Below, one piece after another: positions 18,749-31,955 of a stretch of DNA of 64,000 nucleotides. Every line of letters begins with the position of its first letter. Position 1 is the first letter of the stretch. The notes under the pieces were generated by a model that worked only from the letters and a program-made list of their open reading frames with translations, was not told the origin of the DNA and searched no databases. The DNA comes from a virus. The translations under genes and the position numbers were made by a program. The stretch is taken from positions 31,013 to 95,012 of the IMG/VR virus record IMGVR_UViG_3300021425_000014; one strand, written 5' to 3'.

Positions 18749-18787
18749 GTTTTTGTTCCCCACACAACAGAGGAGATTAAAACCATC

Positions 18788-19606: not shown

Positions 19607-19607
19607 C

Positions 19608-19854: not shown

Positions 19855-19864
19855 CTAACATAGG

Positions 19865-19951
19865 GCCAGATCTGAGCCAGATCGAGCGAAAAAAGAAAAT
19901 CAAAAAAAGATCGTTTTGGGGCTTGCAATCGATCGCGCATTGCCCTATGAT
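19865..19951 (+). promoter_or_regulatory. Operator and promoter of cassette 2 (DUF932 gene)
   Basis: CCAGATCTGAGCCAGATC (two GATC sites, inverted orientation relative to other cassettes) precedes TTGCAA at 19923-19928, 17 bases and TATGAT at 19946-19951. The promoter is identical to that of cassette 1. AAGGAG occurs before the chosen start. Confidence 0.75.
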
Positions 19952-20011
19952 GGGTTTGTTAAGGCAACGGGGGGCACGGAAAACCCCCCCTGAATAAGGA
20001 GAGTGGCCGCC

Positions 20012-21001
20012 ATGGCACACGAAATGAAAAACAACGATCACATGGTTTCGGGTATGGGCATCAAGCCCTGGCACGGTCTGGGAACCGTCGTAGACGGGCT
20101 GTTGACGGCCCGCGAGACTCTGGAAGCCGCCAGGCTTGATTGGGAAGTTATCAAACACCCGATCACGCTGCAAGGTTCCGATCAAATCGTACCCGATTCG
20201 TTCGCAACCATCCGCACAGATGATCGCTCTGTGCTTGGCATCGTCGGCAATCAATACACGATTCTTCAGAATGTCGATGCTTTCAACTTTTTCGATAGCA
20301 TCGCAGAACGCGGCGATGCGATCTATGAAACAGCGGGATCGCTGTTTGGTGGGCGTAAAATCTACGTCACCGCAAAAATCCCAGGCTTGATCCGCGTTGG
20401 TGATGCGGGCAACGAAGATGTAAGCGAAAAATACGTATTACTCACAAACAGCCATGACGGCACTGGGGCTGTTACAGTCAAGCTGATCACAACCAGGGTG
20501 GTCTGCAACAACACGTTAACGGCAGCATTACGCGAAGGCGGGCGCGGTGTGTCGATCCGGCACTCCCAACTAATGCATGATAAATTGGCGCTTGCATCGA
20601 ACATGCTAGGGATCGCTAATCAGCGCTTCCAGCAAATGGAAGAAACATTTAACCAGTTTGCCAACGTGCAACTAAAAGAAATCGAGGTACGCGATTTCTT
20701 GCGGAAATGTTTTGAGCTTCCATCTGATGCAGATAAAGCAACCGATAAAGACAAACGCGCCATTGCCCAGGTAATGGAACTGCATGAGTCTGGCCGTGGC
20801 TCAGAGTTTACCCGTGGCACTCTCTGGGGGGCATTTAATGCCGTCACAGAGTGGACAAACCATTACCGCACATATAAAGAGCAGGCAAACGGTAACACGC
20901 GGGCAGATAACAAGCTTGGATCTATCTTTTACGGTCAATCTGCTACACTCACCGATCGAGCGTATGACCTTGCGCGGGATCTTGTGTTAGCTAAGCGCTA
21001 A
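20012..21001 (+). CDS. DUF932-family protein (phage/plasmid-like protein)
   Basis: 329 aa. Matches the DUF932 family found on phages and plasmids: an N-terminal HDHMVSGMGIKPWHGLG-type start (here NNDHMVSGMGIKPWHGLG), GNQYTILQNVDAFNFFD near residue 80, TNSHDGTGAVTVKLITTRVV near 150 and RVVCNNTLTAAL. The family function is not established. The start at ATG 20012 was chosen because AAGGAG lies nine bases upstream; GTG 20003 would be only one base from that site. It is preceded by the cassette 2 promoter and followed by a palindromic terminator. As the largest array gene it may be a core early protein. Confidence 0.8.
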   Translation: MAHEMKNNDHMVSGMGIKPWHGLGTVVDGLLTARETLEAARLDWEVIKHPITLQGSDQIVPDSFATIRTDDRSVLGIVGNQYTILQNVDAFNFFDSIAERGDAIYETAGSLFGGRKIYVTAKIPGLIRVGDAGNEDVSEKYVLLTNSHDGTGAVTVKLITTRVVCNNTLTAALREGGRGVSIRHSQLMHDKLALASNMLGIANQRFQQMEETFNQFANVQLKEIEVRDFLRKCFELPSDADKATDKDKRAIAQVMELHESGRGSEFTRGTLWGAFNAVTEWTNHYRTYKEQANGNTRADNKLGSIFYGQSATLTDRAYDLARDLVLAKR

Positions 21002-21011
21002 CGCGGGGCAA

Positions 21012-21037
21012 TGGGGGCCCCAAATCGGGGCCCCTTA
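21012..21037 (+). terminator. Terminator after the DUF932 gene
   Basis: GGGGGCCCCAAATCGGGGCCCC followed by TTAC. The same palindrome recurs at 21237-21260 and, extended, at 21691-21717. Confidence 0.6.
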
Positions 21038-21104
21038 CCCGACACGTGGTATACTTACCATACCAGTTATACGATCGGCCCTTATGGGGCTTGTGTGAGG
21101 GCTT

Positions 21105-21221
21105 ATGCACCTTTTATTTTTACCGCTTGTTTTAGTTTTTTGTTTCGCCGTTTTACTTATTCAATTTATAGGCATGGCGATCATTCACGGGATCTCTGGC
21201 CGTCGCAGATGGTATAGTTAA
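21105..21221 (+). CDS. 38-residue single-span membrane peptide
   Basis: ATG 21105 opens a frame of 38 codons: a strongly hydrophobic stretch (LLFLPLVLVFCFAVLLIQFI), then MAIIHGIS and a basic end GRRWYS. GAGG precedes the start. The protein is a plain one-span membrane peptide. It lies in an otherwise gene-poor 270 bases between two palindromes. No family is recognised; small membrane peptides in phage early regions can be holin-like or inhibit host functions, unproven here. Confidence 0.45.
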   Translation: MHLLFLPLVLVFCFAVLLIQFIGMAIIHGISGRRRWYS

Positions 21222-21236
21222 TCTGTCGGAATCATC

Positions 21237-21260
21237 GGGGCCCCAAATCGGGGCCCCACA
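21237..21260 (+). terminator. GC-rich palindrome
   Basis: GGGGCCCCAAATCGGGGCCCC followed by ACAC. Second copy of the palindrome at 21012, here upstream of the 21277 gene. Confidence 0.4.
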
Positions 21261-21276
21261 CAGAAAGGATCATAAA

Positions 21277-21660
21277 ATGACAACTTCTCTAGACATGTTC
21301 AAGGTTCGCTGGGATAAGCAAGATACAGAATGGAACAGCAGCAACATAAACCCTATGGCTTGCCATGATTTCTTCGATAAATTCATTAATGATGTGGAGT
21401 TTCAAACTAGCATTAACTTGAATAACAACATTCAAATTTACAAAGATTATTACGTAAGGGGCAAATATAACTTTGTAAAAGTATTTCAATCGTTAATGCG
21501 GATCCTGAATACGTACCGCAAAAAAACGGGGGACACGACGATCACAACAATTGATGAAATTAAATTTATTGCCGATATGGTAGAAAATAACATATGGAAC
21601 AAACACCTAGTACCGTTAACCATTCAACGGGAATACATTAAGTCTATCTACTCCGAATAA
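21277..21660 (+). CDS. Small protein of unknown function
   Basis: 127 aa. RBS GAAAGGA lies ten bases before ATG 21277. The sequence is AT-rich, unlike the GC-richer cassette genes on both sides, and codes for a helical protein with NNNIQIYKDYYVRGKYNFVK and IDEIKFIADMVENNIW. No family is recognised. It sits between two GC-rich palindromes, of which the downstream one (21691-21717) is probably its terminator. Confidence 0.6.
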   Translation: MTTSLDMFKVRWDKQDTEWNSSNINPMACHDFFDKFINDVEFQTSINLNNNIQIYKDYYVRGKYNFVKVFQSLMRILNTYRKKTGDTTITTIDEIKFIADMVENNIWNKHLVPLTIQREYIKSIYSE

Positions 21661-21690
21661 TCACAGAGCGCAGAGCAGAGAAACAAGCAA

Positions 21691-21717
21691 AGGGGCCCCC
21701 CAAAATCGGGGGCCCTT
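21691..21717 (+). terminator. Terminator after the 21277 gene
   Basis: AGGGGCCCCCCAAAATCGGGGGCCCTT: a strong stem of eight to nine G-C pairs with a T-ended tail. Confidence 0.6.
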
Positions 21718-22040
21718 ACTGCATGAATAATATATATATTATAGATAATACCATAAGCTTATAAGGTATAAAGAATAACACGAAGGTACAAACACTCAAG
21801 GAAAGAAAATCAAGCCCCTTCTAGGGCATTCTAGGCCCCTCTATTGAGGCCCTTACCGATCCAGTTTTCAAGCCCCCATGAAAAACCCTGTATAAACCTT
21901 TTTATTTGTCTGCTAGGGGCCCTTGAATCAATACAAAATACCCCCTTTGGGGCATCCCCAGCCTAAAAATAGCACTATAAGCCCCTTTCGGGCAGATTCT
22001 TTAAAAAATCCAGCGCCGCATAAGAGGCTGTACCATATTA

Positions 22041-22660
22041 AATTGTATTGTTAAGCTCTATGTTTAGTTCTTTTACTCCTCTATATATAGTATGATATTG
22101 TATTGATACTATATATATATTATAAGTTATTATATTGTATTGGGGTTATTAGGCCCCGTTTTGTGTTGTATTGTATTGTAGACTCAGTTCGACACCTTTA
22201 GTACTTTCGCACAGCCGAGTGGAATACAATTCAATACTCTACAATGCTTATTTTAGTTCAAAGATATATATATATTATATTGTATTGTATGGGCCCCCGT
22301 TTTCTGTGGGGTAGTTTAGACTAAAAGTTTAGGCCAACTTTTCGGGGCCCCTTACTTTGTAGTTATTAAACATGTATATATATAATAAATAAAAACTTCG
22401 AGCCCTATATATAGGATCCCCCACTTTCTTTTAACAGCTTTATATATATAATACAATACAATACATTAGGTGCCCCGCTTTTTCACCCAACCGCGAGCGC
22501 CCTGTATTGTATCGCATCACATTGTATTACATTGTATTGTATTGCCTTGTATTGTATTGTATGACATTGTATTGTATTGGTGATGGGTGGCGGTGTGTCC
22601 TCAATACAATATAATGCAATGCGAGAGCGAGGGGCCCCGGCAATACAATGCAATCTAATG
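22041..22660. repeat. TATTG/CAATA array R3 in a gene-free stretch
   Basis: From 21718 to 22665 I find no gene. The DNA is AT-rich with dispersed TATTG blocks (22041-22050, 22094-22105, 22132-22142, 22161-22180, 22277-22290, 22503-22579) and CAATA blocks (22222-22245, 22450-22465, 22602-22620, 22641-22660). The left part has TA-rich runs (TATATATA) and GGGGCCCC-type fragments. Confidence 0.8.
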
Positions 22661-22665
22661 CGAGC

Positions 22666-22767
22666 CTGATCTGGCCTGATCTGACACAAAAGATTTTTCT
22701 TGCAATCTTTCGCCAGATATGTTGTAATTAGATTGTCGCACAAACGAGATGCCCAAACGGGCGGGAG
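22666..22767 (+). promoter_or_regulatory. Operator, promoter and leader of cassette 3
   Basis: CTGATCTGGCCTGATCTG (direct repeat, 10-base period) at 22666-22683; TTGCAA at 22700-22705, 17 bases, TGTAAT at 22723-22728; then AAACGAGATGCCCAAACGGGC with a small hairpin directly before the GGGAG ribosome site at 22763. Confidence 0.75.
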
Positions 22768-22775
22768 ACAAGACC

Positions 22776-23207
22776 TTGCATACAGAATTGACCAAAGACC
22801 AAATCGCTTTCTTGCGTAAGGCACGCCACATTTACTTCAGCGCACGTCGCAATGATGACGGTGTGTTTGTTGGCCACATCGAAGCAATCCAAGAAGATAA
22901 GGATAACCATTCCGTGGCGCGGATGGAAATCACAACACGCGCCATGATTAGTGGTGGGAACCGTGCTAACTGTTCGATCGCAATCGCTGGATTCTGTGAA
23001 GTCTGGCAAACTGTGTTAGCTTTCATCAAGTCTGGCGATTCGCTTGGCCTACGCTTTGAGGCCAACGGATTCCGCCCGTTGGATGAAAAGTACAATGACG
23101 TTAATCTTGATGTCTTGTATGTCAGTGTAGAACGGAATAATAAATTCTATAAATTCTTACTGGATGTTCACTTGACCAAGGAGGGTCATTACCGGATCAT
23201 CCAGTAA
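22776..23207 (+). CDS. Cassette 3 protein, unknown function
   Basis: 143 aa from TTG 22776. An ATG at 22749 is in frame, but it lies inside the leader hairpin before the ribosome site, so it is not the start. The protein has a basic helical N-terminal part and later alternating strands (LDVLYVSVERNNKFYKFLLD) with HYRIIQ at the end. No domain or family is recognised. It has a terminator and its own operator. Confidence 0.65.
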   Translation: MHTELTKDQIAFLRKARHIYFSARRNDDGVFVGHIEAIQEDKDNHSVARMEITTRAMISGGNRANCSIAIAGFCEVWQTVLAFIKSGDSLGLRFEANGFRPLDEKYNDVNLDVLYVSVERNNKFYKFLLDVHLTKEGHYRIIQ

Positions 23208-23215
23208 ACCACGGG

Positions 23216-23237
23216 GCCCCGCAAGGGGCCCTTTTAA
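23216..23237 (+). terminator. Terminator of cassette 3
   Basis: GGGGCCCCGCAAGGGGCCCTTTT with GCAA loop, the standard cassette terminator. Confidence 0.75.
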
Positions 23238-23249
23238 CTAAAGTTAATT

Positions 23250-23433
23250 ATATTGTATTGTATTGCATTAGTTCTTTTAATTGTATTGTATTGGCGTACT
23301 GGCCTCCGAGAAATCGGGGGCCTTTACGTTTCAATACAATTCAATACTATATATTAAAAACATTGTATTGTATTGTATGTGTAATTGGTTGGCCCCGAAA
23401 TCGCGGCCCTCAACCTACCAATACAATACTATA
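23250..23433. repeat. TATTG/CAATA array R4
   Basis: TATTG blocks at 23250-23270, 23281-23294 and 23361-23378, CAATA blocks at 23332-23345 and 23419-23433. Array between cassettes 3 and 4, with no gene between. Confidence 0.8.
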
Positions 23434-23477
23434 ATATATATACCAAATATTAAATAAAAATAGTTTCAAAAAAGGGC

Positions 23478-23548
23478 TTGCAATGATTCTCAGGATATGC
23501 TTTAATGGTATTGTCAGGTTATGGCCCCACCTTTGAGCGGGCCCGGAG
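23478..23548 (+). promoter_or_regulatory. Promoter and leader of cassette 4
   Basis: TTGCAA at 23478-23483, 17 bases, TTTAAT at 23501-23506. No TGATCTGG operator is seen. The leader ends with GGGCCCGGAG, the ribosome site of the TTG-started gene. Confidence 0.65.
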
Positions 23549-23557
23549 ATCGGAACC

Positions 23558-23749
23558 TTGCCTAACACAAAACTTATCAGCAAGCACGGAACCAAAGATC
23601 GCGTTTTCTGCCCCCGGTGTTTGAGAGAGTTGCAGAGTGATATCAAAAGCGATATAAGTTTTTGGTTTCATTGGGCAGATAATTATCACGCGGCTGGACA
23701 CCAAACGGAAGAGCCATGCCAGCGGTATGCAGATACTTGCGGAGATTAA
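23558..23749 (+). CDS. Cassette 4 small cysteine-rich protein
   Basis: 63 aa from TTG 23558, nine bases after GGAG. CPRCLREL near residue 18 and further Cys/His residues (WHWADNYHAAGH, CQRYADTC) could bind zinc. Otherwise unrecognised. It carries its own promoter and terminator and is the shortest coding cassette of the early part of the array. Confidence 0.6.
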   Translation: MPNTKLISKHGTKDRVFCPRCLRELQSDIKSDISFWFHWADNYHAAGHQTEEPCQRYADTCGD

Positions 23750-23752
23750 GCC

Positions 23753-23780
23753 CTGCCCCCTTCGGGGGGCTTTTTTATTA
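23753..23780 (+). terminator. Terminator of cassette 4
   Basis: CTGCCCCCTTCGGGGGGCTTTTTTATT, with a TTCG loop. Confidence 0.75.
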
Positions 23781-23788
23781 TGCCTATA

Positions 23789-23938
23789 TATATTGGATTG
23801 TATTGTATTGGCGATCGCCATCCGCCAAATCGCGAACACTCACTCTTTGAATACAATATAATATATTAATCTTATTGCATTGTATTGTATTAAGGCACCC
23901 CGATTCGCGGGCCCTTAAAACTTACCAATACAATACAC
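23789..23938. repeat. TATTG/CAATA array R5
   Basis: TATTG at 23789-23810 directly before the HIP1 octamer GCGATCGC (23811-23818), CAATA phase at 23850-23865, TATTG at 23873-23892, CAATA at 23926-23938. The phrase CACTCACTCTTTG before CAATA recurs at other arrays. Confidence 0.8.
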
Positions 23939-23955
23939 TATAATAATAAAACCAA

Positions 23956-24060
23956 AGATCTGGCTCAGATCAACATGACCTTGATCACTTGCGCCATGCC
24001 CCCCATCGTGCTACACTAAGGTTGTTCGGTTAAGCGATGGCGCTGGACGCGCCGGGAGGT
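23956..24060 (+). promoter_or_regulatory. Operator, promoter and leader of cassette 5
   Basis: AGATCTGGCTCAGATCAAC at 23956-23974; TTGCGC at 23989-23994, 17 bases, TACACT at 24012-24017; leader GCGATGGCGCTGGACGCGCC then GGGAGGT (24054-24060). Hairpin GGCGC / GCGCC just before the ribosome site. Confidence 0.75.
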
Positions 24061-24067
24061 AAACGCA

Positions 24068-24259
24068 ATGGGTGATTTAAACTGGCCTTTCTGGCACACG
24101 CAAGAAGAGTGTGACGAGATGAACAAAACGCTTGTGGATGATATGAAAAACAACATGAGCAAGATTCTGTGGAACAACGATCATGATACAGTTCAAGAAA
24201 TTCTTTCGAGATGGGAAGAAAACACAGGCATCGATCTTCGCCTTGAGCGCGATTGGTAA
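24068..24259 (+). CDS. Cassette 5 first protein, unknown function
   Basis: 63 aa. ATG 24068 lies eight bases after GGGAGGT. It is acidic with a helical central part (EECDEMNKTLVDDMKNN, EILSRWEENTG). It is co-transcribed with the next gene, whose ribosome site follows its stop. No family is recognised. Confidence 0.65.
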   Translation: MGDLNWPFWHTQEECDEMNKTLVDDMKNNMSKILWNNDHDTVQEILSRWEENTGIDLRLERDW

Positions 24260-24274
24260 AAAGGGAGGTAAGCA

Positions 24275-24559
24275 ATGCAGACCACGCAAGTTTATAACAA
24301 CGTCATCGAGGCTGTTGTGTGCAACAGCATGGCGTATGACTTTCAATTACCCATCGGCAAGTTCGATGGCGAAAGTTTACTCAAAAAGATCTGGTTCAAG
24401 ATTCAAAAGAAAGGGAATAGTAAAAGCCCTGACATCCAAATGCAGCGCGCCATGTGGCTAAGCCCTTGCAGGTTCGATGGAAGCGCTTTAAGGTCAATGG
24501 ATATGAAAGGGCAATGGTGGGACACAGGCATGGAGCTTGTAGCCAAGCGAGACATTTAA
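24275..24559 (+). CDS. Cassette 5 second protein, unknown function
   Basis: 94 aa, ATG 24275 with AAGGGAGGT upstream. Mostly hydrophilic, with basic segments (LKKIWFKIQKKGNSKSP) and MDMKGQWWDTGMELVAKRD at the end. This is the only clear two-gene cassette in the array. Unrecognised. Confidence 0.65.
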   Translation: MQTTQVYNNVIEAVVCNSMAYDFQLPIGKFDGESLLKKIWFKIQKKGNSKSPDIQMQRAMWLSPCRFDGSALRSMDMKGQWWDTGMELVAKRDI

Positions 24560-24561
24560 TA

Positions 24562-24759
24562 GTATTGTATTGCCCCCCGAGAGGGGGGCTTTCTCGTATG
24601 CCCCTGTGTATTGTATTGTATGGGCGGATACCCCTGCTTAATCAAAATTCAAAAAAACGCGCCGCCGCATATTCGATACAATTCAATTCAATGCGATGAA
24701 TGTATGGTATTGTATTGTATAAAAACGCGGGCACTCACTCTTTGCCAATACAATACAAA
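24562..24759. repeat. TATTG/CAATA array R6
   Basis: TATTG at 24562-24572, 24606-24621, 24706-24720; CAATA at 24674-24693 and 24745-24759. The phrase CGGGCACTCACTCTTTG before CAATA is shared with R5 (and in variants with R11 and R12). Confidence 0.8.
24572..24596 (+). terminator. Terminator of cassette 5
   Basis: GCCCCCCGAGAGGGGGGCTTTCTCG directly behind a TATTG repeat. Confidence 0.75.
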
Positions 24760-24760
24760 C

Positions 24761-24849
24761 AGATCTGACTCTGATCTAAACACTTGCGTCATTAATATAT
24801 ATCTGCTAGAATTAAAGAGTAAAGGCAAGGGCTCAAGCGAGCCGGAAAG
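24761..24849 (+). promoter_or_regulatory. Operator, promoter and leader of cassette 6
   Basis: AGATCTGACTCTGATCTAAA at 24761-24780; TTGCGT at 24784-24789, 17 bases, TAGAAT at 24807-24812; leader AAGAGTAAAGGCAAGGGCTC with hairpin GGCTC/GAGCC before GGAAAG. Confidence 0.7.
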
Positions 24850-24857
24850 TGAAGGTT

Positions 24858-25088
24858 ATGATCCCTTTTGCTGAGATTGAATTGTGGGATGACTACGGCC
24901 ACAAGAAGTGGATTGAATATGACAATATTGATGATGTCATATGGGGCCATAAATGGGATGACTCGGACGATCATGAGTGTGAGAGATCGGGTAACGTAGA
25001 AATCCACAAGCTGGGGCCCAAGGATCATTATTATTGTATTATCATGGTTAAGAAATACGGGATGCCCAAACTCGAACTCCAACTCTAA
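24858..25088 (+). CDS. Cassette 6 protein, unknown function
   Basis: 76 aa from ATG 24858, with GGAAAG eight bases upstream; a GTG at 24849 in frame is an alternative but touches that site. Acidic, with tryptophans and aromatic residues (ELWDDYGHKKWIEYDNIDDV, WGHKWDDSDDHECE). The end YYCIIMVKKYGMPKLELQL is basic/hydrophobic. Unrecognised. Confidence 0.6.
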   Translation: MIPFAEIELWDDYGHKKWIEYDNIDDVIWGHKWDDSDDHECERSGNVEIHKLGPKDHYYCIIMVKKYGMPKLELQL

Positions 25089-25099
25089 CTTAACAGCTT

Positions 25100-25279
25100 T
25101 ATATTGTATTGCCCCTCTGGCTCTGGCTGGCGGGGCACTTTTGCGCTCAGGCCCGCCTCGCTGTATTGCATTGTATTGTATGCCCCCGTCGTATTGCATT
25201 GTATTGTATTGGTGGCCATCGACCCACGGCAATACAATTCAATTCAATGTAAAGGTTGTATGGTATTGTATTGTATTGG
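25100..25279. repeat. TATTG/CAATA array R7
   Basis: TATTG at 25100-25111, 25162-25181, 25191-25211, 25258-25279; CAATA at 25230-25250. Followed by GATCTGGCCTGA and the cassette 7 promoter. Confidence 0.8.
25110..25143 (+). terminator. Probable terminator of cassette 6
   Basis: GCCCC, a long loop, GGGGC then ACTTTT. Weaker than the other cassette terminators. Confidence 0.45.
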
Positions 25280-25294
25280 TCGGATCCGGGGCCC

Positions 25295-25396
25295 GATCTG
25301 GCCTGAAAAATGTTTTCAAAAACTATTGACTTGGCCATGGACGGCATGTTACTCTTGAGGAGTCAACACAAGCGATGGCGCTGACGCGCCGGGAGG
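25295..25396 (+). promoter_or_regulatory. Operator, promoter and leader of cassette 7
   Basis: GATCTGGCCTGA at 25295-25306 (single operator half); TTGACT at 25326-25331, 17 bases, TTACTC at 25349-25354; leader GCGATGGCGCTGACGCGCC then GGGAGG (25391-25396). This -10 box is the poorest match of the series. Confidence 0.65.
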
Positions 25397-25401
25397 CTCA
25401 A

Positions 25402-25770
25402 ATGCTCAAGAACATGATCGCCACGGATGCCCTGGGTGGGTTGCAGGTCAAGGTGTACCGCAACCTTCACAAGAAGTGCCTCAGCGTGTGGCATGCGGGC
25501 TATGTCGTGGCCCATGTTGACTCCATCACGCTGGATGGCGTGCTTTTCAAGGTGAACGAAGCTGGACGCCAACGCGTGTTGCGTGAGAAGAAAAAGAACG
25601 TCCACGCTTTCGTGACGGGCACAGTCACAGGCGTTAACGCGCCCCCACGGGGGGCTGTTCCCGTGTCCTACAACCCTTATAAGGGGGCTTCTTTCACCCT
25701 GCCTGATGGCCAGGCCATTATGGCGGCCGGAACGGTCACGGTGACGACCAGGGGGGCCTTCGTAGACTGA
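25402..25770 (+). CDS. Cassette 7 protein, unknown function
   Basis: 122 aa. The start ATG 25402 sits five bases after GGGAGG. An in-frame ATG at 25375 begins inside the leader (reading MALTRREAQ) and is a trap for gene finders. The protein is basic with a central stretch LGGLQVKVYRNLHKKCLSVW, and a C-terminal half with TVTGVNAPPRGAVPV. GC-rich codons distinguish it from the replication genes. Unrecognised. Confidence 0.65.
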   Translation: MLKNMIATDALGGLQVKVYRNLHKKCLSVWHAGYVVAHVDSITLDGVLFKVNEAGRQRVLREKKKNVHAFVTGTVTGVNAPPRGAVPVSYNPYKGASFTLPDGQAIMAAGTVTVTTRGAFVD

Positions 25771-25798
25771 GGGCCCCGGCTCTCTTTCCCCATAGGGA

Positions 25799-25865
25799 TC
25801 AATACAATGCAATGCAGTCCAATACAATGCAATTCAATGCAACGGTTATATTGTATTGTATTGTA
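25799..25865. repeat. CAATA/TATTG array R8
   Basis: CAATA units at 25799-25841, then TATTG units to 25865 with a short spacer; a compact hairpin. The sequence before it (25771-25798) is GC-rich with no clear terminator. Confidence 0.8.
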
Positions 25866-25884
25866 TGGCCCCCATCCGGGGGGG

Positions 25885-25992
25885 CTGATCTGGGGCTGAT
25901 CTGGGCTGAAAAATCTTTTTTGAAATCGTTGACATCTCGCTTGAAACTTGCTACTATTAAAGAGTAGTCGTTATGGCGCTGAGCGCCGGGAG
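25885..25992 (+). promoter_or_regulatory. Operator, promoter and leader of cassette 8
   Basis: CTGATCTGGGGCTGATCTGG at 25885-25904 (period 11); TTGACA at 25929-25934, 17 bases, TACTAT at 25952-25957; leader AAAGAGTAGTCGTTATGGCG with GGCGCTGAGCGCC hairpin before GGGAGG. Confidence 0.8.
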
Positions 25993-25998
25993 GTCAAA

Positions 25999-26232
25999 GT
26001 GAAGGGCATCGACATCATTCGGGAATCGGACAACGGCGGAGAAATCATCGGATTTCGCATCAGCGCCAAGCACGGCGGATTCGGGTTTGACGTACCGCTT
26101 GTAGACTTAGTCAACGCTGAGGTGTTCACGGAAGAGAAGCGCGAGGCGCTGCTCAAGCGATACCAGGCCTACTTGGCCGATATCGTCAAAACCTGGGAGC
26201 AGCCGGGCACGGCTAATCGCTGGGATGTTTAG
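25999..26232 (+). CDS. Cassette 8 protein, member of an array paralog trio
   Basis: 77 aa from GTG 25999 after GGGAGG. Sequence contains KGIDIIRESDNGGEIIGFRI and FGFDVPLVDLVNAEVF. The pattern of a beta hairpin followed by V.DLVNA and a helix is shared with the cassettes at 29345 and 29924, so these are probably divergent paralogs. Function unknown. Confidence 0.65.
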   Translation: MKGIDIIRESDNGGEIIGFRISAKHGGFGFDVPLVDLVNAEVFTEEKREALLKRYQAYLADIVKTWEQPGTANRWDV

Positions 26233-26233
26233 C

Positions 26234-26264
26234 CCAGGGCCCCCCGAAAGGGGGGCTTTTTTCG
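26234..26264 (+). terminator. Terminator of cassette 8
   Basis: GGGCCCCCCGAAAGGGGGGCTTTTTTC. Confidence 0.8.
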
Positions 26265-26274
26265 TGTGGCTTAT

Positions 26275-26329
26275 CAATACAATACAATTCAATACAACGC
26301 GGGGGGAATATATTGCATTGTATTGTATG
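26275..26329. repeat. CAATA/TATTG array R9, cleanest hairpin
   Basis: Left arm ATACAATACAATTCAATA, right arm the near-complement with one mismatch (TATTGCATTGTATTGTAT) and a short spacer holding GCGGGGGG. This is the clearest example of an imperfect inverted repeat in the array. Confidence 0.85.
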
Positions 26330-26389
26330 GGCGGGATCGCCGTGCGCCATTCGGCCTCATCGGGCCAGCAATGCGGTGCGCAACGCAGC

Positions 26390-26490
26390 ATCGCATTTAA
26401 GGGCCCTGTGAGGGCCATGAAGGGGCTTATAGGTATCCGGGAGGGTGATTGTACCCTGAACGCCATCAGGGGCCTTTACGGGCCTTGTGG
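26390..26490. other. Dispersed structured element, copy A
   Basis: About 100 bases with the core AGGGTGATTGTACCCT (an inverted repeat AGGGT/ACCCT) preceded by GGCCCTGTGAGGGCC and followed by GGGGCCTTTACGGGCC. Four more copies are at 27.94, 29.69, 30.47 and 37.06 kb. It lies directly upstream of the operator of cassette 9. Confidence 0.6.
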
Positions 26491-26494
26491 TGGC

Positions 26495-26590
26495 TTGATC
26501 TGGAATAAAAAGTTTTTCTTGACATCCAATGATGGGGTTGATATGATGAAAGAGTCAGGCAAACGAGATGGCGCTGACGCGCCGGGAGGT
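26495..26590 (+). promoter_or_regulatory. Operator, promoter and leader of cassette 9
   Basis: TTGATCTGG at 26495-26503 (single motif); TTGACA at 26519-26524, 17 bases, TATGAT at 26542-26547: a near-perfect sigma70 promoter; leader AAAGAGTCAGGCAAACGAG with the GGCGCTGACGCGCC hairpin before GGGAGGT. Confidence 0.8.
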
Positions 26591-26594
26591 CGAA

Positions 26595-26756
26595 ATGATG
26601 GTAAGCTTTCAGGAAGAAGAAAAGGGATTCTTGGTAGCGGTGACTGAAGACGATTTCGTCTTCATTCCCGTTCAGAACGGGAACCGCGTAGCCGCCTTCG
26701 AAGAGGCGATCGAGCAGCTTAACGAATGGTTCTATGCATCACTTAAATACAAGTGA
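26595..26756 (+). CDS. Cassette 9 protein, unknown function
   Basis: 53 aa. ATG 26595 lies four bases after GGGAGGT (MM start; the second ATG is equally possible). An in-frame ATG at 26568 (reading MALTRREVEM) is inside the leader and not the start. Acidic protein with FLVAVTEDDFVFIPVQNG and an end FEEAIEQLNEWFYASL. Unrecognised. Confidence 0.6.
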   Translation: MMVSFQEEEKGFLVAVTEDDFVFIPVQNGNRVAAFEEAIEQLNEWFYASLKYK

Positions 26757-26759
26757 TGC

Positions 26760-26788
26760 GAGGCCCCCGAAAGGGGGCTTTTTTCGTG
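26760..26788 (+). terminator. Terminator of cassette 9
   Basis: GAGGCCCCCGAAAGGGGGCTTTTTTCG. Confidence 0.8.
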
Positions 26789-26796
26789 CCAATCAT

Positions 26797-26900
26797 CAAT
26801 ACAATACAATTCTATACAATCACTGCATCGCATTGTATTGTATGGGGAAGAATCGGGGGGCCATACCTACTTCCCTTTGAATCACCAATACAATACAGTT
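26797..26900. repeat. CAATA/TATTG array R10
   Basis: CAATA at 26797-26820, TATTG at 26828-26844, CAATA at 26886-26897. The phrase TTTGAATCACCAATACAATAC leads to the next operator. Confidence 0.8.
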
Positions 26901-26910
26901 TAATATATGA

Positions 26911-27025
26911 CCTGATCTGGCCTCAAAATATTTTTAAAATAGTTTCTGAAAAGGGGTTTACATTCCCAGGTGAAACGGGTATGATATTAATGTAAGGGTT
27001 AAGCGACACCCCTGAGTCGCGGAGA
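26911..27025 (+). promoter_or_regulatory. Operator, promoter and leader of cassette 10
   Basis: CCTGATCTGGCCT at 26911-26923; TTTACA at 26957-26962, 17 bases, TATGAT at 26980-26985; leader with GCGACACCCCTGAGTCGC hairpin before GGAG. This leader hairpin differs in sequence from the GGCGC type but keeps the position. Confidence 0.75.
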
Positions 27026-27035
27026 ACAGACCACC

Positions 27036-27272
27036 ATGGCTATCTTCAATGTTGTAATGGTTAAGGATCCGATGATGGCCCCCGTGCTCGTTGAGCAGCA
27101 CAAAGTCGAGAGCCTGAAAGAGGCTCGTAAGATCCTCAGCCAGTGGGCTGAAGATGGGGACAAAATAGTAGCCCTCAAGAAGGCGCCGCTTCCCTCAGGG
27201 CGCCACGTGACGCCACTGGTTATACAGACGATGGAAGAGGATTCCGATATCTTCGGACAATACATAGATTAA
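27036..27272 (+). CDS. Cassette 10 protein, unknown function
   Basis: 78 aa, ATG 27036. The N-terminal half MAIFNVVMVKDPMMAPVLVE is strand-like, followed by a helical KVESLKEARKILSQWAEDGD. The end is acidic. Unrecognised. It keeps the array pattern of one promoter and one gene. Confidence 0.65.
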   Translation: MAIFNVVMVKDPMMAPVLVEQHKVESLKEARKILSQWAEDGDKIVALKKAPLPSGRHVTPLVIQTMEEDSDIFGQYID

Positions 27273-27273
27273 G

Positions 27274-27303
27274 CGAGGGGCCCCGCGAGGGGCCCTTTTT
27301 TTT
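27274..27303 (+). terminator. Terminator of cassette 10
   Basis: GAGGGGCCCCGCGAGGGGCCCTTTTTT. Confidence 0.8.
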
Positions 27304-27313
27304 ATGCCCCTGT

Positions 27314-27465
27314 GTATATTGCATTGTATTGCCAGGGCGATCGCCCATCGGGACTTATCAATACAATTCAATGCAACCAATGTATTGCATTGTATTGGAC
27401 GGGGGCCCCGGCGAGCTTGCGCCAAATCGCGCGCCCTTACTCTTTGCAATACAATACAATCTAAT
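27314..27465. repeat. TATTG/CAATA array R11
   Basis: TATTG at 27314-27331 followed by HIP1 GCGATCGC at 27337-27344, CAATA at 27359-27375, TATTG at 27381-27398, CAATA at 27446-27465. Shares CTTTGCAATACAATACAAT with R12 and R5. Confidence 0.8.
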
Positions 27466-27470
27466 TCATA

Positions 27471-27596
27471 CCTGATCTGACCTTGATCTGACACAAGTTG
27501 ATTTATTTGACATCCTTCCCGATAGTTGTTATTATAAAAGAGTCAAGGCAAGCGGGCCCGACGCCCGCCAGATGAACCCCAGGGGTTCGGGAGGTA
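27471..27596 (+). promoter_or_regulatory. Operator, promoter and double leader hairpin of cassette 11
   Basis: CCTGATCTGACCTTGATCTG at 27471-27490 (period 11); TTGACA at 27507-27512, 17 bases, TATTAT at 27530-27535; the leader has two hairpins, GCGGGC/GCCCGC and GAACCCCAGGGGTTC, before GGGAGGT. Confidence 0.8.
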
Positions 27597-27599
27597 AAC

Positions 27600-27821
27600 A
27601 TGACCATCACCATTGCCGTTGTTATCGCTGTGCTTACATTTGCGCTGGGCATGTCGCTCGGCGTGAGCCTTCAGCAATCATACGGTAATCGTACCGAAAG
27701 AATTTTATATGAGGCGTACCGCCAGGCGCGGGATGAGGCCCTTCACCTTGAAAGGAAAATCGCCACGGGCGAAAGTTTTAGGAGAAACGTCATCCGCTCA
27801 ATAAAGAAAATCTCAGACTAA
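27600..27821 (+). CDS. Cassette 11 small membrane protein
   Basis: 73 aa. The first 25 residues are one hydrophobic span (ITIAVVIAVLTFALGMSL), then a basic, helical tail (NRTERILYEAYRQARDEALH, SFRRNVIRSIKKISD). It would insert with the N terminus in the membrane and the tail in the cytoplasm. No family is recognised. Confidence 0.65.
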   Translation: MTITIAVVIAVLTFALGMSLGVSLQQSYGNRTERILYEAYRQARDEALHLERKIATGESFRRNVIRSIKKISD

Positions 27822-27824
27822 CAC

Positions 27825-27855
27825 AGGGCCCCCGAAAGGGGGCTCTTTTTTTATG
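27825..27855 (+). terminator. Terminator of cassette 11
   Basis: GGGCCCCCGAAAGGGGGCTCTTTTTTT. Confidence 0.8.
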
Positions 27856-27863
27856 CCTGTTAA

Positions 27864-28170
27864 TATATTGCATTGCATTGTATTGTTAGCCCCCCTTTTC
27901 TTCGTGCGTTCGAAACATCCGATAAGCCCCACAGCGTAGCACCCTTTTAAAGCGTGCTGTGAGCCCGTTAAACGCGTTTCAGGGGGGTGGGTAGGGTGAT
28001 TGTACCTTAGAACAATTTAAACGCCTTTAAAGCCCGTATGTTTAATCAATGCGATCGCCCATAGAAGATCAATACAATTCAATTCAATGCAGCCGTGGTA
28101 TCGCATTGTATTGTATGGACACAGGGCAGGGGCAAAAGCGGGGCCCGTCACTTTTTGCAATACAATATAA
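27864..28170. repeat. Array R12 with structured element copy B inside
   Basis: TATTG at 27864-27886; CAATA at 28070-28090; TATTG at 28101-28117; CAATA at 28158-28170. Between them, 27935-28040 holds the AGGGTGATTGTACC element (core at 27992-28007) and HIP1 GCGATCGC is at 28051-28058. Confidence 0.75.
27935..28040. other. Dispersed structured element, copy B
   Basis: GTTAAACGCGTTTC, then GTGGGTAGGGTGATTGTACC, then ACGCCTTTAAAGCCCG. The AGGGT...ACCTT arm pair keeps pairing by a G-U change compared with copy A. Confidence 0.55.
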
Positions 28171-28184
28171 TTATATATAAAAGG

Positions 28185-28276
28185 GTTGATCTGGGTTGAT
28201 CTGGTTTAGTTGACATCATAAGCCTGGTTTGATATGATTAAAGAGTAAAGGTTATGGCCTGATGGCCGGGAGGTTC
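28185..28276 (+). promoter_or_regulatory. Operator, promoter and leader of cassette 12
   Basis: GTTGATCTGGGTTGATCTGG at 28185-28204 (period 10), almost touching TTGACA at 28210-28215; 17 bases; TATGAT at 28233-28238; leader GGTTATGGCCTGATGGCC hairpin before GGGAGGT. Confidence 0.8.
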
Positions 28277-28278
28277 TA

Positions 28279-28533
28279 ATGCGCGAGTACGTGGGCAATG
28301 TCGAGGATCTGTGGGAAAACCCTTTCGATGGCTATTGCCGTGCGCTTGACCGTTATGACCGCTTTGCGGTCTATGAACGGGACACGGACGGGTATGGATT
28401 CCCGATCTATCATTGCTGGTCAAGCAAGGAGCAGGAAACCATATGGTTCACAAGAGAGGACGCCGCCATGCGCTGGTGTCAAAACATGATGGTTGCCCTA
28501 CGACTTGAGGGGCATTATATCTGGATGGTTTAA
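28279..28533 (+). CDS. Cassette 12 protein, unknown function
   Basis: 84 aa, ATG 28279 after GGGAGGT. Rich in Trp, Tyr and charged residues: GYCRALDRYDRFAVYERDTD and HCWSSKEQETIWFTREDAAM. The end is basic-hydrophobic (LRLEGHYIWMV). No family is recognised. A small alpha/beta protein is plausible. Confidence 0.65.
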   Translation: MREYVGNVEDLWENPFDGYCRALDRYDRFAVYERDTDGYGFPIYHCWSSKEQETIWFTREDAAMRWCQNMMVALRLEGHYIWMV

Positions 28534-28536
28534 CAG

Positions 28537-28565
28537 GGGGCCCCGCAAGGGGCCTCTTTTTTTAT
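28537..28565 (+). terminator. Terminator of cassette 12
   Basis: GGGGGCCCCGCAAGGGGCCTCTTTTTTT. Confidence 0.8.
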
Positions 28566-28576
28566 TGCCATAAGTC

Positions 28577-28624
28577 CATACAATACAATTCAATAACTTG
28601 ATTAGATTGCATTGCATTGTATTG
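28577..28624. repeat. CAATA/TATTG array R13
   Basis: CCATACAATACAATTCAATA left arm, ATTGCATTGCATTGTATTG right arm with a short spacer. Confidence 0.8.
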
Positions 28625-28637
28625 CCCCGATACCGGG

Positions 28638-28743
28638 CTGATCTGGTCTGATTTGACAAGAAAAGTTTTTCTTGACATCCCGCTTGCGATTTGCTATTAT
28701 TAAATTAGTCAAGCAAACGAGATGGCGCTGAGCGCCGGGAGGT
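28638..28743 (+). promoter_or_regulatory. Operator, promoter and leader of cassette 13
   Basis: CTGATCTGGTCTGATTTG at 28638-28655; TTGACA at 28672-28677, 17 bases, TATTAT at 28695-28700; leader GATGGCGCTGAGCGCC hairpin before GGGAGGT. Confidence 0.8.
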
Positions 28744-28748
28744 TGAAA

Positions 28749-29072
28749 ATGGCAAAGCAACTTTGGTACGACATCAACAAGTTTCACGAAGGAAAGAATG
28801 TAGCCGATTGCCTTATCGGCACTGCAAGCCGCGAGGATCTGCACCATTATTTCTTGGTGCTGAATCGCTACAATGACACCAAAACGGGATACCTCCCTGG
28901 GGCATATCTTGAAAACCCAGAAAAAGATTATGTACTTGTGTCGGGAACGGAAACTACTGAAGAAATCGAAAGTTTCATGAAAAAAATTGTCCAGTGGTCA
29001 CTGGAGGATAAGGATTTTTCGGAAGAATTCAACGAAAGAACAAGACAGCTTGAAAAGGAATTCCAAGCTTAA
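28749..29072 (+). CDS. Cassette 13 protein, unknown function
   Basis: 107 aa. ATG 28749 lies five bases after GGGAGGT; an in-frame ATG at 28722 is inside the leader. MAKQLWYDINKFHEGKNVAD, then a central DLHHYFLVLNRYNDTKTGYL and an acidic helical end (EEIESFMKKIVQWSLEDKDF). No family is recognised. Confidence 0.65.
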   Translation: MAKQLWYDINKFHEGKNVADCLIGTASREDLHHYFLVLNRYNDTKTGYLPGAYLENPEKDYVLVSGTETTEEIESFMKKIVQWSLEDKDFSEEFNERTRQLEKEFQA

Positions 29073-29073
29073 A

Positions 29074-29105
29074 GCCAAGCCCCCGCAAGGGGGCTTTTTT
29101 CTTGG
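29074..29105 (+). terminator. Terminator of cassette 13
   Basis: GCCAAGCCCCCGCAAGGGGG then CTTTTTTCTTGG. Confidence 0.8.
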
Positions 29106-29114
29106 CTTACCTTC

Positions 29115-29220
29115 CATACAATACAATGCAATTTAATGATTGTATGGGATTGTATTGTATTGATTAGTGGCAGGGCGCTAAAGGGCGATCGCCCATCGCG
29201 GCACAGCAATACAATGCAAT
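29115..29220. repeat. CAATA/TATTG array R14
   Basis: CAATA at 29115-29131, TATTG at 29149-29161, CAATA at 29206-29220; HIP1 GCGATCGC at 29185-29192. Confidence 0.8.
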
Positions 29221-29231
29221 GAGATACATCA

Positions 29232-29338
29232 CCTGATCTGGCTTGATCTTAAAATGTTGACATCAGGTGTGCCAGATGTTATTATTAAATAGTCAAGGCG
29301 ACGGGGCGCTGCCCCAAGATGGCCCCAGTGGCCGGGAG
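29232..29338 (+). promoter_or_regulatory. Operator, promoter and leader of cassette 14
   Basis: CCTGATCTGGCTTGATCTT at 29232-29250; TTGACA at 29257-29262, 17 bases, TATTAT at 29280-29285; leader with GGGGCGCTGCCCC and GGCCCCAGTGGCC hairpins before GGGAGGT. Confidence 0.8.
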
Positions 29339-29344
29339 GTTCTA

Positions 29345-29551
29345 ATGTTGGTTGACGCGATCAAGCTCAAGGGCAAAGGTTCTGACGCGGCTGATCCCGC
29401 TTATGGGATCGCTTTCACCGATAAGGATGGGGTCATCCTCGACATCACCGTCGAGGATCTGGTGAACGCTGCGGCGTTGCACAACCCATACCTTGACAAG
29501 GTGTCGTACCAAAAACATATCGAGCGTTGCATCGAAAGGATTTTCGAATAA
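29345..29551 (+). CDS. Cassette 14 protein, paralog of cassettes 8 and 15
   Basis: 68 aa, ATG 29345 after GGGAGGT. Contains KGKGSDAADPAYGIAFTDKD and ILDITVEDLVNAAAL, matching the V.DLVNA arrangement of cassette 8 and the DLANG segment of cassette 15. Ends with a basic helix (YQKHIERCIERIFE). Function unknown. Confidence 0.65.
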   Translation: MLVDAIKLKGKGSDAADPAYGIAFTDKDGVILDITVEDLVNAAALHNPYLDKVSYQKHIERCIERIFE

Positions 29552-29552
29552 A

Positions 29553-29587
29553 GCCAAGCCCCCGCAAGGGGGCTTTTTTCTTGGCAC
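29553..29587 (+). terminator. Terminator of cassette 14
   Basis: GCCAAGCCCCCGCAAGGGGG then CTTTTTTCTTGGC. Essentially identical to the terminator of cassette 13. Confidence 0.8.
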
Positions 29588-29592
29588 ATGTT

Positions 29593-29641
29593 CAATACAA
29601 TACAATTCAATGCGTTTAAGTTATTACATTGCATTGTATTG
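29593..29641. repeat. CAATA/TATTG array R15
   Basis: TCAATACAATACAATTCAAT left, TTACATTGCATTGTATTGG right, ending near HIP1 GCGATCGC at 29661-29668. Confidence 0.8.
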
Positions 29642-29689
29642 GCGATAAACCGTGCCCCCGGCGATCGCCCGTGGCGTCGTACACCACGA

Positions 29690-29795
29690 CATCGCGTTTA
29701 AGGGGCCTGTGAGGGCCGTAAAGGGGCCTCTCGGTGTCTGGCAGGGTGATTGTACCCTAGCAGGGTTCAAGGGCCTTTACGGGGCTCCTGTGGCC
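29690..29795. other. Dispersed structured element, copy C
   Basis: GTTTAAGGGGCCTGTGAGGG, GGCAGGGTGATTGTACCCTA and GGGCCTTTACGGGGC, near copy A. It ends at the operator of cassette 15, as copy A ends at that of cassette 9. Confidence 0.6.
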
Positions 29796-29920
29796 TGATC
29801 TGATGGTTGATCTGGAGTGAAAGATTTTTGTTGACATCCTGTGACCGGCTTGCTATGATGAAATAGTCAAGGCGACGGGGCCCGATGCCCCGGTTATGGC
29901 CCCCAGGGGGCCGGGAGGTA
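29794..29920 (+). promoter_or_regulatory. Operator, promoter and leader of cassette 15
   Basis: CCTGATCTGATGGTTGATCT at 29794-29813; TTGACA at 29831-29836, 17 bases, TATGAT at 29854-29859; leader with GGGGCCCGATGCCCC and GGCCCCCAGGGGGCC hairpins before GGGAGGT. Confidence 0.8.
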
Positions 29921-29923
29921 AAC

Positions 29924-30178
29924 ATGACCATGATCGTTAACAAAGAGTACACCGTAAAGCTGGCTATAAACGGTAGCCAAGATCCGGTGGATCCAGTGGG
30001 AACCTTGAGGTTCCACGGTTTCACCGTTATCGGTGAAAACGGCGAAGAATTCTTCGTCGACTTTCAGGACTTGGCCAACGGTCGCCAGGTCGATGAAAAG
30101 TTCGACGTGACGATCTTGTGGCGGCTCAGTGAGTTCTACAAGTCACAGTTTCTCAAGGTTATCGGCGAGAAACTGTAA
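29924..30178 (+). CDS. Cassette 15 protein, paralog of cassettes 8 and 14
   Basis: 84 aa, ATG 29924 after GGGAGGT. Strand-rich N terminus (MTMIVNKEYTVKLAINGSQD) then GFTVIGENGEEFFVDFQDLA, which lines up with the strand and DLVNA segments of cassettes 8 and 14. Basic C-terminal helix. Function unknown. Confidence 0.65.
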   Translation: MTMIVNKEYTVKLAINGSQDPVDPVGTLRFHGFTVIGENGEEFFVDFQDLANGRQVDEKFDVTILWRLSEFYKSQFLKVIGEKL

Positions 30179-30181
30179 CCC

Positions 30182-30211
30182 AAGGGCCCCCCGCAAGGGG
30201 GGCTTTTTTTA
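30182..30211 (+). terminator. Terminator of cassette 15
   Basis: GGGCCCCCCGCAAGGGGGGC then TTTTTTTA. Confidence 0.8.
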
Positions 30212-30228
30212 TTGCCCCCTATTATATG

Positions 30229-30408
30229 GCATTGTATTGTATTGCCCCCGGCATATAGCCCCTCCCCATCAATGCCCCTGTTAATCAGAAAAATAAATGT
30301 TTCACGCGCCGTATATTATAAAAATAATCGTTCGGTGGCCCCGAATGGCGGCCAATACAATTCAACACAATTCAATTCAATTCTAAAACATTTTATTGCA
30401 TTGTATTG
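30229..30408. repeat. TATTG/CAATA array R16
   Basis: TATTG at 30229-30244, CAATA at 30353-30383 and TATTG at 30395-30408. Further small blocks are at 30658-30675 and 30804-30826. No convincing gene lies in 30212-32024. Confidence 0.75.
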
Positions 30409-30469
30409 AAAAAAGTTTCTGGGGGTGCGCAAAAAGCGGGAAGATTAATTCCCCACATTTTTCACTCAA

Positions 30470-30590
30470 CCCTTAAAACTTAACACCCTTTTCTTTGCGT
30501 ACAGAATGGCGTTAAACACGTTTCAGATACCACGGCAGGGTGATTGTACCTTGAACGATTTTCAGGCACCTTTACGGGGCTTGCGTAGGC
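30470..30590. other. Dispersed structured element, copy D
   Basis: GCGTTAAACACGTTTC, GGCAGGGTGATTGTACCTTG and GGCACCTTTACGGGGC. Copies B and D are most alike (GTTAAACRCGTTTC), A and C are most alike. Confidence 0.6.
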
Positions 30591-30868
30591 TGTTTTAAAT
30601 TTAACTCACATCAGGCTTGTTCAACTTGACGTTGAATTGACACAGCCTGAAAAATCCCATACAATACAATTCAACACATGGGGCCATGATCATGAGTTTT
30701 CCCCATGTATAGGATCCCCAACTTTCGACCAATAGCTTTAAAAACCCTTTCCCGCTTTCGATCGCCAGCCCCGGCGCACAGGGCGAAAAAAGTCGATTTT
30801 TGCTGTATTGTATTGTATTGTATTGTTAACCTAACCTTACCCTCATCTTAACCTGTTCTTAACCTTCG

Positions 30869-31280
30869 ATGTCAACTAAGAGATCTTTAAGAGATCGTTA
30901 AATTTAGGTTAAATTTTGGTGTAAAATATTTTACCATATTTCGTCGAAAATGTCAATTAAAAGATCTTTAAAAGATCTTAAAATTTAGGTTAAATTTTGC
31001 TACCACGAAAATCCAGATCTGTCAACTAAATTTAGGTTAAAGATCTTTAAATTATGGTTAAATTTTACGATCACAGATCTCGTCGAAAGTCAATTAAATT
31101 TGAGTTAAAGATCTTTAAGTTTAGGTTAAGTTTTACGATCAGATTTTTCGTCGAAAGTCAATTAAAAATAAGTTAAAGATCTTAAAGGTTTGGTTAAATT
31201 TTACAGGCACATTTTTCACCGAAAGTCAATTAAATTCAGGTTAAAGATCTTTAAGATTTGATTAAACTTTTTTCGTCGAA
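30869..31280. repeat. GATC-rich iteron field, candidate origin of replication
   Basis: About six imperfect units of 56-78 bases. A typical unit reads CGTCGAAAGTCAATTAAATT, then GTTAAAGATCTTTAA, then GGTTAAATTTTACGATCA. AGATCTTTAA (palindromic AAAGATCTTT) recurs in every unit and more than ten GATC sites fall in 410 bases. It is preceded by TTAACC-type repeats (30826-30868). AT-rich direct repeats with short inverted repeats, in a gene-free region next to a strand switch in coding direction, are typical of replication origins. Confidence 0.7.
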
Positions 31281-31955
31281 AAAAATCAGATGAATCGGAT
31301 TTTGTCAATACTTTTTTACAATTTGTAATATTCCTGATCAGTAATATTTGTTGTCAGATCCGCAACGTGACAACAAAAAAAAATCATGGAAAATCTAATA
31401 TGTCAATGGTTCAGATCAAGCTCAGATCATGTGAGTCTCATGCACTCAACATGTTGCCACGGCGGAAAAATCATGCGAATCGGATTTTGTCAAGCTTTAC
31501 ATTGCTTCACATTATCGTATGACATAAAAACGATCCCCGAAACCGGCTCCCAGTGCGGGCCCGTTTACAGGATGCCCGTAAAGGCCCTTGATCTACCCTT
31601 GCCCTTATGTCCGGACGTTGGACGCCTCAAGGGGCCCGGACGGGCATCCAGGGGCCCTAGGATGGCCTGTGAGGGGCCCGCCATCGGGCACGATTTGCCG
31701 ATCACGTCGAACATACAATCGAACAGTCATGCGCGCGCCATGCGTGTCGCGCGGGTACGCTGTGCGCTTGACGCCGTGATCTGACGTCAAACCCTGATGT
31801 GGCGCGGGTTTCCGGGTTTCCAGATCTAGCACGGTCAAACTGGATTGAATTGTATTGAAAGACGGGAAACGTAGACGCCGTGCCGGTTTCCGGGTTTTCA
31901 TGCTTGGATAGGCTCAAAATCGAGTCGATTTTGGGCTGTACATCAGGGGCCCGAT
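31281..31955. other. Gene-free region with duplicated promoter-like motif and GC-rich core
   Basis: The phrase AATCGGATTTTGTCAA occurs twice (near 31290 and 31485), each followed by a possible -10 box; the second is TTGTCA at 31497-31502, 17 bases, CATTAT at 31520-31525. Downstream, 31550-31790 is GC-rich with many GGGCCC palindromes and no convincing gene. GCCGGTTTCCGGGTTTTC is a near direct repeat of sequence at 31806 and 31883. It might encode a structured RNA. Confidence 0.4.

Follow-up and report, generated by a model that had tools for sequence, protein, structure and literature searches.

In a 64,000-nucleotide stretch of viral DNA, the short motif TGATCTGG and its near copies are repeated upstream of a series of small genes, and this arrangement probably marks a transcription-factor site shared among them. 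The stretch, called the window below, covers bases 31013-95012 of a virus record totalling 95,012 bases (IMGVR_UViG_3300021425_000014), and all positions are those of the window. With moderate confidence, we consider that the site, most likely serving an activator, unites about a dozen one-gene cassettes in one regulon. TGATCTG(G/A) would be the half-site of the predicted binding site, and the factor would occupy one or two head-to-tail copies of it on one helical face directly ahead of each promoter. From that face it may contact RNA polymerase, an activator with class I- or class II-like placement being the most likely form. Protein binding, activation, the action of a single protein and its timing in infection are what we infer from the arrangement described here.

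Enrichment and orientation of the motif

The array comprises 15 sigma70-type promoters at 18.7-30.2 kb, most of them followed by a single small gene and then an intrinsic terminator; these cassettes are numbered c0 to c14. The window contains 13 copies of TGATCTGG, where 1.9 would be expected. Ten exact copies are found in the array in the forward (coding, +) orientation and none in the reverse, and each of the 10 is at most 60 bp upstream of a -35 box; the three others in the window, at 10032, 11757 and 15188, are inside coding sequence, in a number near chance. An earlier sequence-only reading of this DNA had proposed paired operators for a common regulator, and had named a lack of enrichment over random expectation before the -35 boxes as the result that would count against it. 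The enrichment was found: 10 exact copies are present within 60 bp before the 15 -35 boxes, compared to 0.05 when those regions were dinucleotide-shuffled (at most 1 copy over 3000 shuffles) and 0.64 when the same 15 intervals were randomly placed in the array. Forward GATCTG occurs 18 times in these regions compared to 0.44 in dinucleotide shuffles (maximum 4), and TGATCTG and GATCTGG are 7-mers present in most of them. In either orientation, the GATCTG core is placed ahead of 13 of the 15 promoters.

The eight -35 boxes of c7-c14 came from a mechanical scan and those of c2-c6 were partly picked by eye. In a check for bias, the promoters of the form TTGACA-17-TANNNT (c7, c8 and c10-c14) were found mechanically and all seven carry TGATCTG within 60 bp, whereas the one remaining match to that form in the window, at 30637, lacks the motif.

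The consensus arrangement is TGATCTG(G/A)-N2-4-TGATCTG(G/A). All the sites listed in the sequence-only reading are present, within 1-2 bp of where it had placed them, and its pairing of half-sites at about one helical turn was borne out in c2, c7 and c10-c14. Distances given below run from the start of a site to the start of the -35 box (first base in each case), and sites are on the forward strand unless otherwise mentioned. Cassette c2 has the pair TGATCTGG/TGATCTGA (22667-22684; starts 22667 and 22677, 10 bp apart), 33 and 23 bp from the -35 box TTGCAA at 22700. Two copies of TGATCTGG are present in c7 (25886-25904; starts 25886 and 25897, 11 bp apart; 43 and 32 bp to the -35 at 25929) and in c11 (28187-28204; starts 28187 and 28197, 10 bp apart; 23 and 13 bp to 28210), and two copies of TGATCTGA in c10 (27473-27491; starts 27473 and 27484, 11 bp apart; 34 and 23 bp to 27507). 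The pairs are TGATCTGG/TGATTTGA in c12 (28639-28656; starts 28639 and 28649, 10 bp apart; 33 and 23 bp to 28672), TGATCTGG/TGATCTTA in c13 (29234-29251; starts 29234 and 29244, 10 bp apart; 23 and 13 bp to 29257) and TGATCTGA/TGATCTGG in c14 (29796-29815; starts 29796 and 29808, 12 bp apart; 35 and 23 bp to 29831). A single TGATCTGG precedes c8 (26496-26503, 23 bp to the -35 at 26519) and c9 (26913-26920, 44 bp to 26957). The c5 pair, AGATCTGA/TGATCTAA, is degenerate (24761-24779; starts 24761 and 24772, 11 bp apart; 23 and 12 bp to 24784), and c6 has CGATCTGG (25294-25301) 32 bp before the -35 at 25326, with a weaker GGATCCGG another 12 bp upstream. In c4 (23956-23972) a forward AGATCTGG at 23956 and an inverted TCAGATCA at 23965 stand 33 and 24 bp before the -35 at 23989. 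The half-sites of c1, the DUF932 gene, are inverted and on the reverse strand (CCAGATCT and CCAGATCG, 19866-19884; starts 19866 and 19877, 11 bp apart), with the -35 at 19923.

Helical phasing

The sites form a ladder, lying 12-13, 23, 32-35 or 43-44 bp before the -35 box, i.e. in one-turn steps, and a distance of exactly 23 bp recurs in 9 of the 12 cassettes that have forward sites. The earlier range of 5 to 35 bases before the -35 box is better described by these discrete steps. The period of the ladder is near 10.25 bp with a resultant length of about 0.94. When one proximal site per cassette was used in 12 cassettes, 0 of 20,000 random draws reached the observed value, and after merging the cassettes with similar spacers into 7 families p was about 5e-4, both against a null of distances uniform over 6-45 bp, which was an arbitrary choice of ours. 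The phase is held across several unrelated spacer sequences between the site and the -35 box, and hence the one-turn shifts appear to be maintained and not merely copied. In most cassettes no decayed copies were found at the site-less positions one turn nearer to the promoter, so the ladder is not simply a worn-down longer tandem repeat.

If the regulon is real, it would be a concrete and testable one for an uncultured phage group, in which the motif predicts the small genes that are co-expressed, and these are probably host-takeover genes. The ladder would also predict the workable helical positions for a synthetic site.

Activation or repression

Activators that contact the alpha C-terminal domain or sigma region 4 of the polymerase are placed upstream of an intact -35 box, on one face and in whole-turn steps. 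In the array no site overlaps the -35 box, the spacer or the -10 box, and if the spacer is 17 bp and transcription begins about 7 nt past the -10 box the sites would span about -41 to -79. Whole-turn steps on one face with an intact -35 box downstream place an activator above a repressor. The term operator in the sequence-only reading implies repression, and the estimated position suits an activator at least equally. Its common regulator on one face is well supported by the enrichment, the orientation bias and the phasing, both between half-sites and to the promoter, the latter having escaped that reading; that this regulator switches the whole array is less certain, with 2 of the 15 promoters lacking a good site.

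Several points weigh against an activator-controlled regulon. No site was found in c3 and only a degenerate inverted copy in c0, for which reason the core precedes 13 and not all 15 promoters. The promoters are near consensus (TTGACA-17-TATNAT with TG, several with A-tracts), so that an activator is not obviously needed and a repressor or booster is favoured in this respect. The cassettes partly share ancestry, of which family merging removes only a part, and the null of the phase test is arbitrary, as mentioned. The contigs of the relatives are fragments and none of them covers the array. Finally, neither a sigma factor nor a response regulator (receiver plus winged helix) was found among the families listed from Pfam and PHROGs for the 78 non-cassette phage proteins, some of these listings covering the best 25 families, which in one Pfam listing were 25 of 36. 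The regulator may possibly be host-encoded.

Repression through the same sites is unlikely, and yet the strength of the promoters speaks for it. A phage or host repressor would either shut strong early promoters later or hold them off until infection, by contact with polymerase or by an upstream block. The near-consensus promoters, with TG-extended -10 boxes and A-tracts, resemble the T4 early promoters which work unaided (PMC2988021), and array-wide operators are known in cluster A mycobacteriophages (PMC9283540). On the other hand, the -35 box, spacer and -10 box are free of sites, and a one-turn ladder upstream of an intact -35 box is the classical geometry of an activator.

It is quite improbable that the motif works in cis as one element of a very strong promoter, offering an upstream contact for the alpha C-terminal domain of the host polymerase with no dedicated regulator. 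T4 early promoters do have UP elements together with additional conserved upstream bases (PMC2988021), and an A-tract is present between the site and the -35 box in c2, c6-c9, c12 and c14. However, UP elements are A/T-rich (about -38 to -59) and GATCTGG is not, the sites move by one, two or three turns with the A-tract for the alpha C-terminal domain as a separate element, and such a tract is missing from c10, c11 and c13, which do have sites.

A methylation switch appears slightly less probable again. A Dam-like enzyme of the phage would methylate the GATC of the half-site and block or allow the binding of the factor, tying the array to the state of methylation or replication. A D12-class adenine methyltransferase, Dam/DpnM-like with the motifs FVDPFCGSLAV and DPPY and with GATC as its predicted target, is encoded at 4611-5417 on the forward strand; GATC is contained in every full-score half-site, and the 15 upstream regions hold 26 GATC compared to 7 under random placement. 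Among phages, such control has been tested for the gtr promoter of P22, which has OxyR and GATC sites (PMC2909390). GATC is, however, common throughout the genome (346 against 301 expected under a second-order model) and its presence in the site is therefore not special. The specificity of the enzyme is a prediction, and methylation would be compatible with a binding factor without replacing one. A second DNA methyltransferase gene, of the N6_N4_Mtase type, lies at 33688-34806, so that one phage carries two such genes.

A broader speculation, of low probability, is a modular regulon in a lytic phage, with interchangeable one-gene cassettes that each have the same outer parts (a terminator, pentamer repeats, a phased pair of TGATCTGG, a strong promoter and a leader with hairpin and Shine-Dalgarno sequence). 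A single new regulator would serve them all, and the phage's own methylation of GATC would gate its sites.

The least probable explanation is a non-functional relic that was copied along with the promoter shell during duplication or recruitment of cassettes: long similar stretches of promoter shell do exist (c0/c1, c8/c12 and c8/c14), but the spacers vary in sequence and by whole turns while the motif is retained, and in a relic the length would drift regardless of phase.

Comparison with known systems

On the features compared, the element appears to behave like a direct-repeat, helix-phased transcription-factor site that falls outside the PhoP, MotA, stoperator and Start-Associated Sequence families. 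Its closest likeness is to OmpR/PhoB-type sites and those of Salmonella PhoP, where head-to-tail half-sites about one turn apart precede sigma70-type promoters (PMC3335776). The half-site spacing in such repeats is about 10-11 bp; here it is 10-12 bp in c2, c7 and c10-c14 and 11 bp in c5 and the inverted c1, and the sites likewise keep to one face. In the direct orientation, the PhoP box activates from 12, 23 or 33 nt from the -10 box and little from 7, 17 or 28 (PMC3335776). The usable positions are thus whole turns apart in both systems, and some sites are inverted and farther upstream, here in c1; the natural ladder would be an unplanned mutational series like the hand-made one for PhoP. 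The PhoP box proper, (T/G)GTTTA-N5-(T/G)GTTTA (PMC3335776), is unrelated in sequence to TGATCTGG, and PhoP-activated promoters are mostly without a good -35 box whereas the cassette promoters have one.

As in T4, a single short phage element stands before many phage promoters using the host polymerase, and the promoters recall its strong early ones with UP, -35, TGn and -10 elements (PMC2988021). In T4 middle promoters, the MotA box replaces the -35 box, centred at -30 and 12 +/- 1 bp from the -10 box (PMC2988021), whereas here TTGACA is intact and the sites are 12-44 bp upstream of it. Like the cluster A stoperators bound by the L5 repressor (PMC9283540), the motif has many short asymmetric copies oriented with transcription. 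It differs from them in sequence and length, and its sites keep phase with the promoters to which they are tied and are not scattered through operons; stoperators lie in transcribed intergenic DNA away from promoters, while all exact array copies are within 60 bp of a -35 box, and no such repressor was found in the phage.

Start-Associated Sequences (SAS) and ESAS of cluster K phages (PMC3203893) are also repeated elements before many small unrelated phage genes. SAS overlie the ribosome-binding site, 3-7 bp ahead of the start codon, whereas the motif is upstream of the -35 box and about 80 bp or more from the start; a closer analogue is the hairpin-GGGAGG leader of the cassettes. P22 gtr (PMC2909390) shares the presence of GATC within regulator half-sites upstream of a phage promoter, and a methylase with GATC as its predicted target is present here, as expected of a Dam-sensitive regulator site. 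In P22, there is a single phase-variable promoter; here it is an array, and the phage itself encodes the Dam-like enzyme. IHF and CRP sites were rejected for their wrong symmetry, judged by eye against the consensus.

Candidate regulator and relatives

A protein of 80 amino acids encoded at 35900-36142 (forward strand) is modelled as a winged helix-turn-helix (pLDDT 90) and is a candidate DNA-binding regulator. In fold comparisons it scores best against winged-helix transcription proteins, at E about 0.002 with none below 0.001, and it is 74% identical in the relative G002. It may be proposed as one candidate for the regulator of the array.

The phage, an uncultured metagenomic virus of bacteria, is a myovirus as judged from its predicted protein set (tail sheath, DnaE-like polymerase, DnaB-like helicase, RNR and SU10-type capsid). 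A close relative in culture was not found, the best tail sheath match being 27% identical, and a search of genome contigs with the sheath and capsid gave no relative. The relatives that were found have tail sheaths of 60-70% identity and major capsid proteins of 87% and 54%. G002 ends at the edge of the array, with two TGATCTGG near its end and no recognisable cassette promoter, and G003 shows no such array where its contig reaches the corresponding region. A collection-wide pattern search for the pentamer repeat described below with TGATCTG gave 0 matches; a search for the paired site with TTGACA matched once in each of 9 contigs, three being identical in sequence, which is about chance by a rough estimate. 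L017 and L025, with a plausible layout among these nine, belong to an unrelated phage type.

Cassette promoters, leaders and other repeats

The sigma70-type promoters from the mechanical scan, with a 17-bp spacer, occupy 25929-29859 on the forward strand (-35 boxes at 25929, 26519, 26957, 27507, 28210, 28672, 29257 and 29831), and TG precedes the -10 box in all of them except that with the -35 at 26957. Weaker promoters, found by eye and scan, lie at 18720-25355 on the same strand (-35 boxes at 18720, 19923, 22700, 23478, 23989, 24784 and 25326). Identical stretches are shared by c0 and c1 (34 bp; 18720-18770 and 19923-19973) and by c0 and c3 (21 bp), and other similar shells are those of c8/c12 (43 bp at 93%) and c8/c14 (63 bp at 81%). 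The GP88 cassette c0, the DUF932 cassette c1 and c3 form a subfamily with TTGCAA-type promoters, mostly lacking the forward motif.

Intrinsic terminators follow the cassettes on the forward strand within 19620-30207, e.g. at 23755, 24572, 26236, 27275, 27825, 28535, 29077, 29556 and 30182, and terminator-like sites number 56 against 16.5 expected. Most cassettes appear to be separate transcription units. No significant similarity was found when the cassette genes were compared with each other, and known families among them are few, namely GP88, DUF932 and an L5 gp82-like protein in c6. The c6 product (25402-25770) is a homologue of mycobacteriophage L5 gp82, found also in Bacillus and Myxococcus phages, at ~50% identity.

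Most leaders of c2-c14 (e.g. 25973-25994, 28256-28274 and 29896-29918) have a short GC-rich hairpin just 5' of the Shine-Dalgarno sequence, such as GGCGC-TGA-GCGCC, GGCC-TGAT-GGCC and GGCCCCC-A-GGGGGCC, in which the pairing is conserved and the sequence is variable; GGGAGG directly follows most of these hairpins.

Between the TGATCTGG sites and the terminators of the cassettes there are repeats with a pentamer period, which often form inverted pairs. The region 18512-31860 holds 58 of the 60 copies of ATTGTATTG and 33 of the 34 copies of CAATACAAT in the 95-kb contig, and these repeats may possibly serve cassette exchange or protein binding. An element GGGTGATTGTACC...CCTTTACGGG is seen upstream of some cassettes (26443, 27993, 29743 and 30538; two exact pattern matches and the rest by eye), and a similar stretch is present near the contig end of G002. 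At the end of the array (30971-31271), a 68-bp unit rich in TTAAAGATCTTTAA and GTCAATTAAA is repeated in tandem, and this is a possible replication origin. Away from the array, the tail-fibre-like gene at 44913-46544 contains in-frame 75-bp tandem repeats at 45384-46241.

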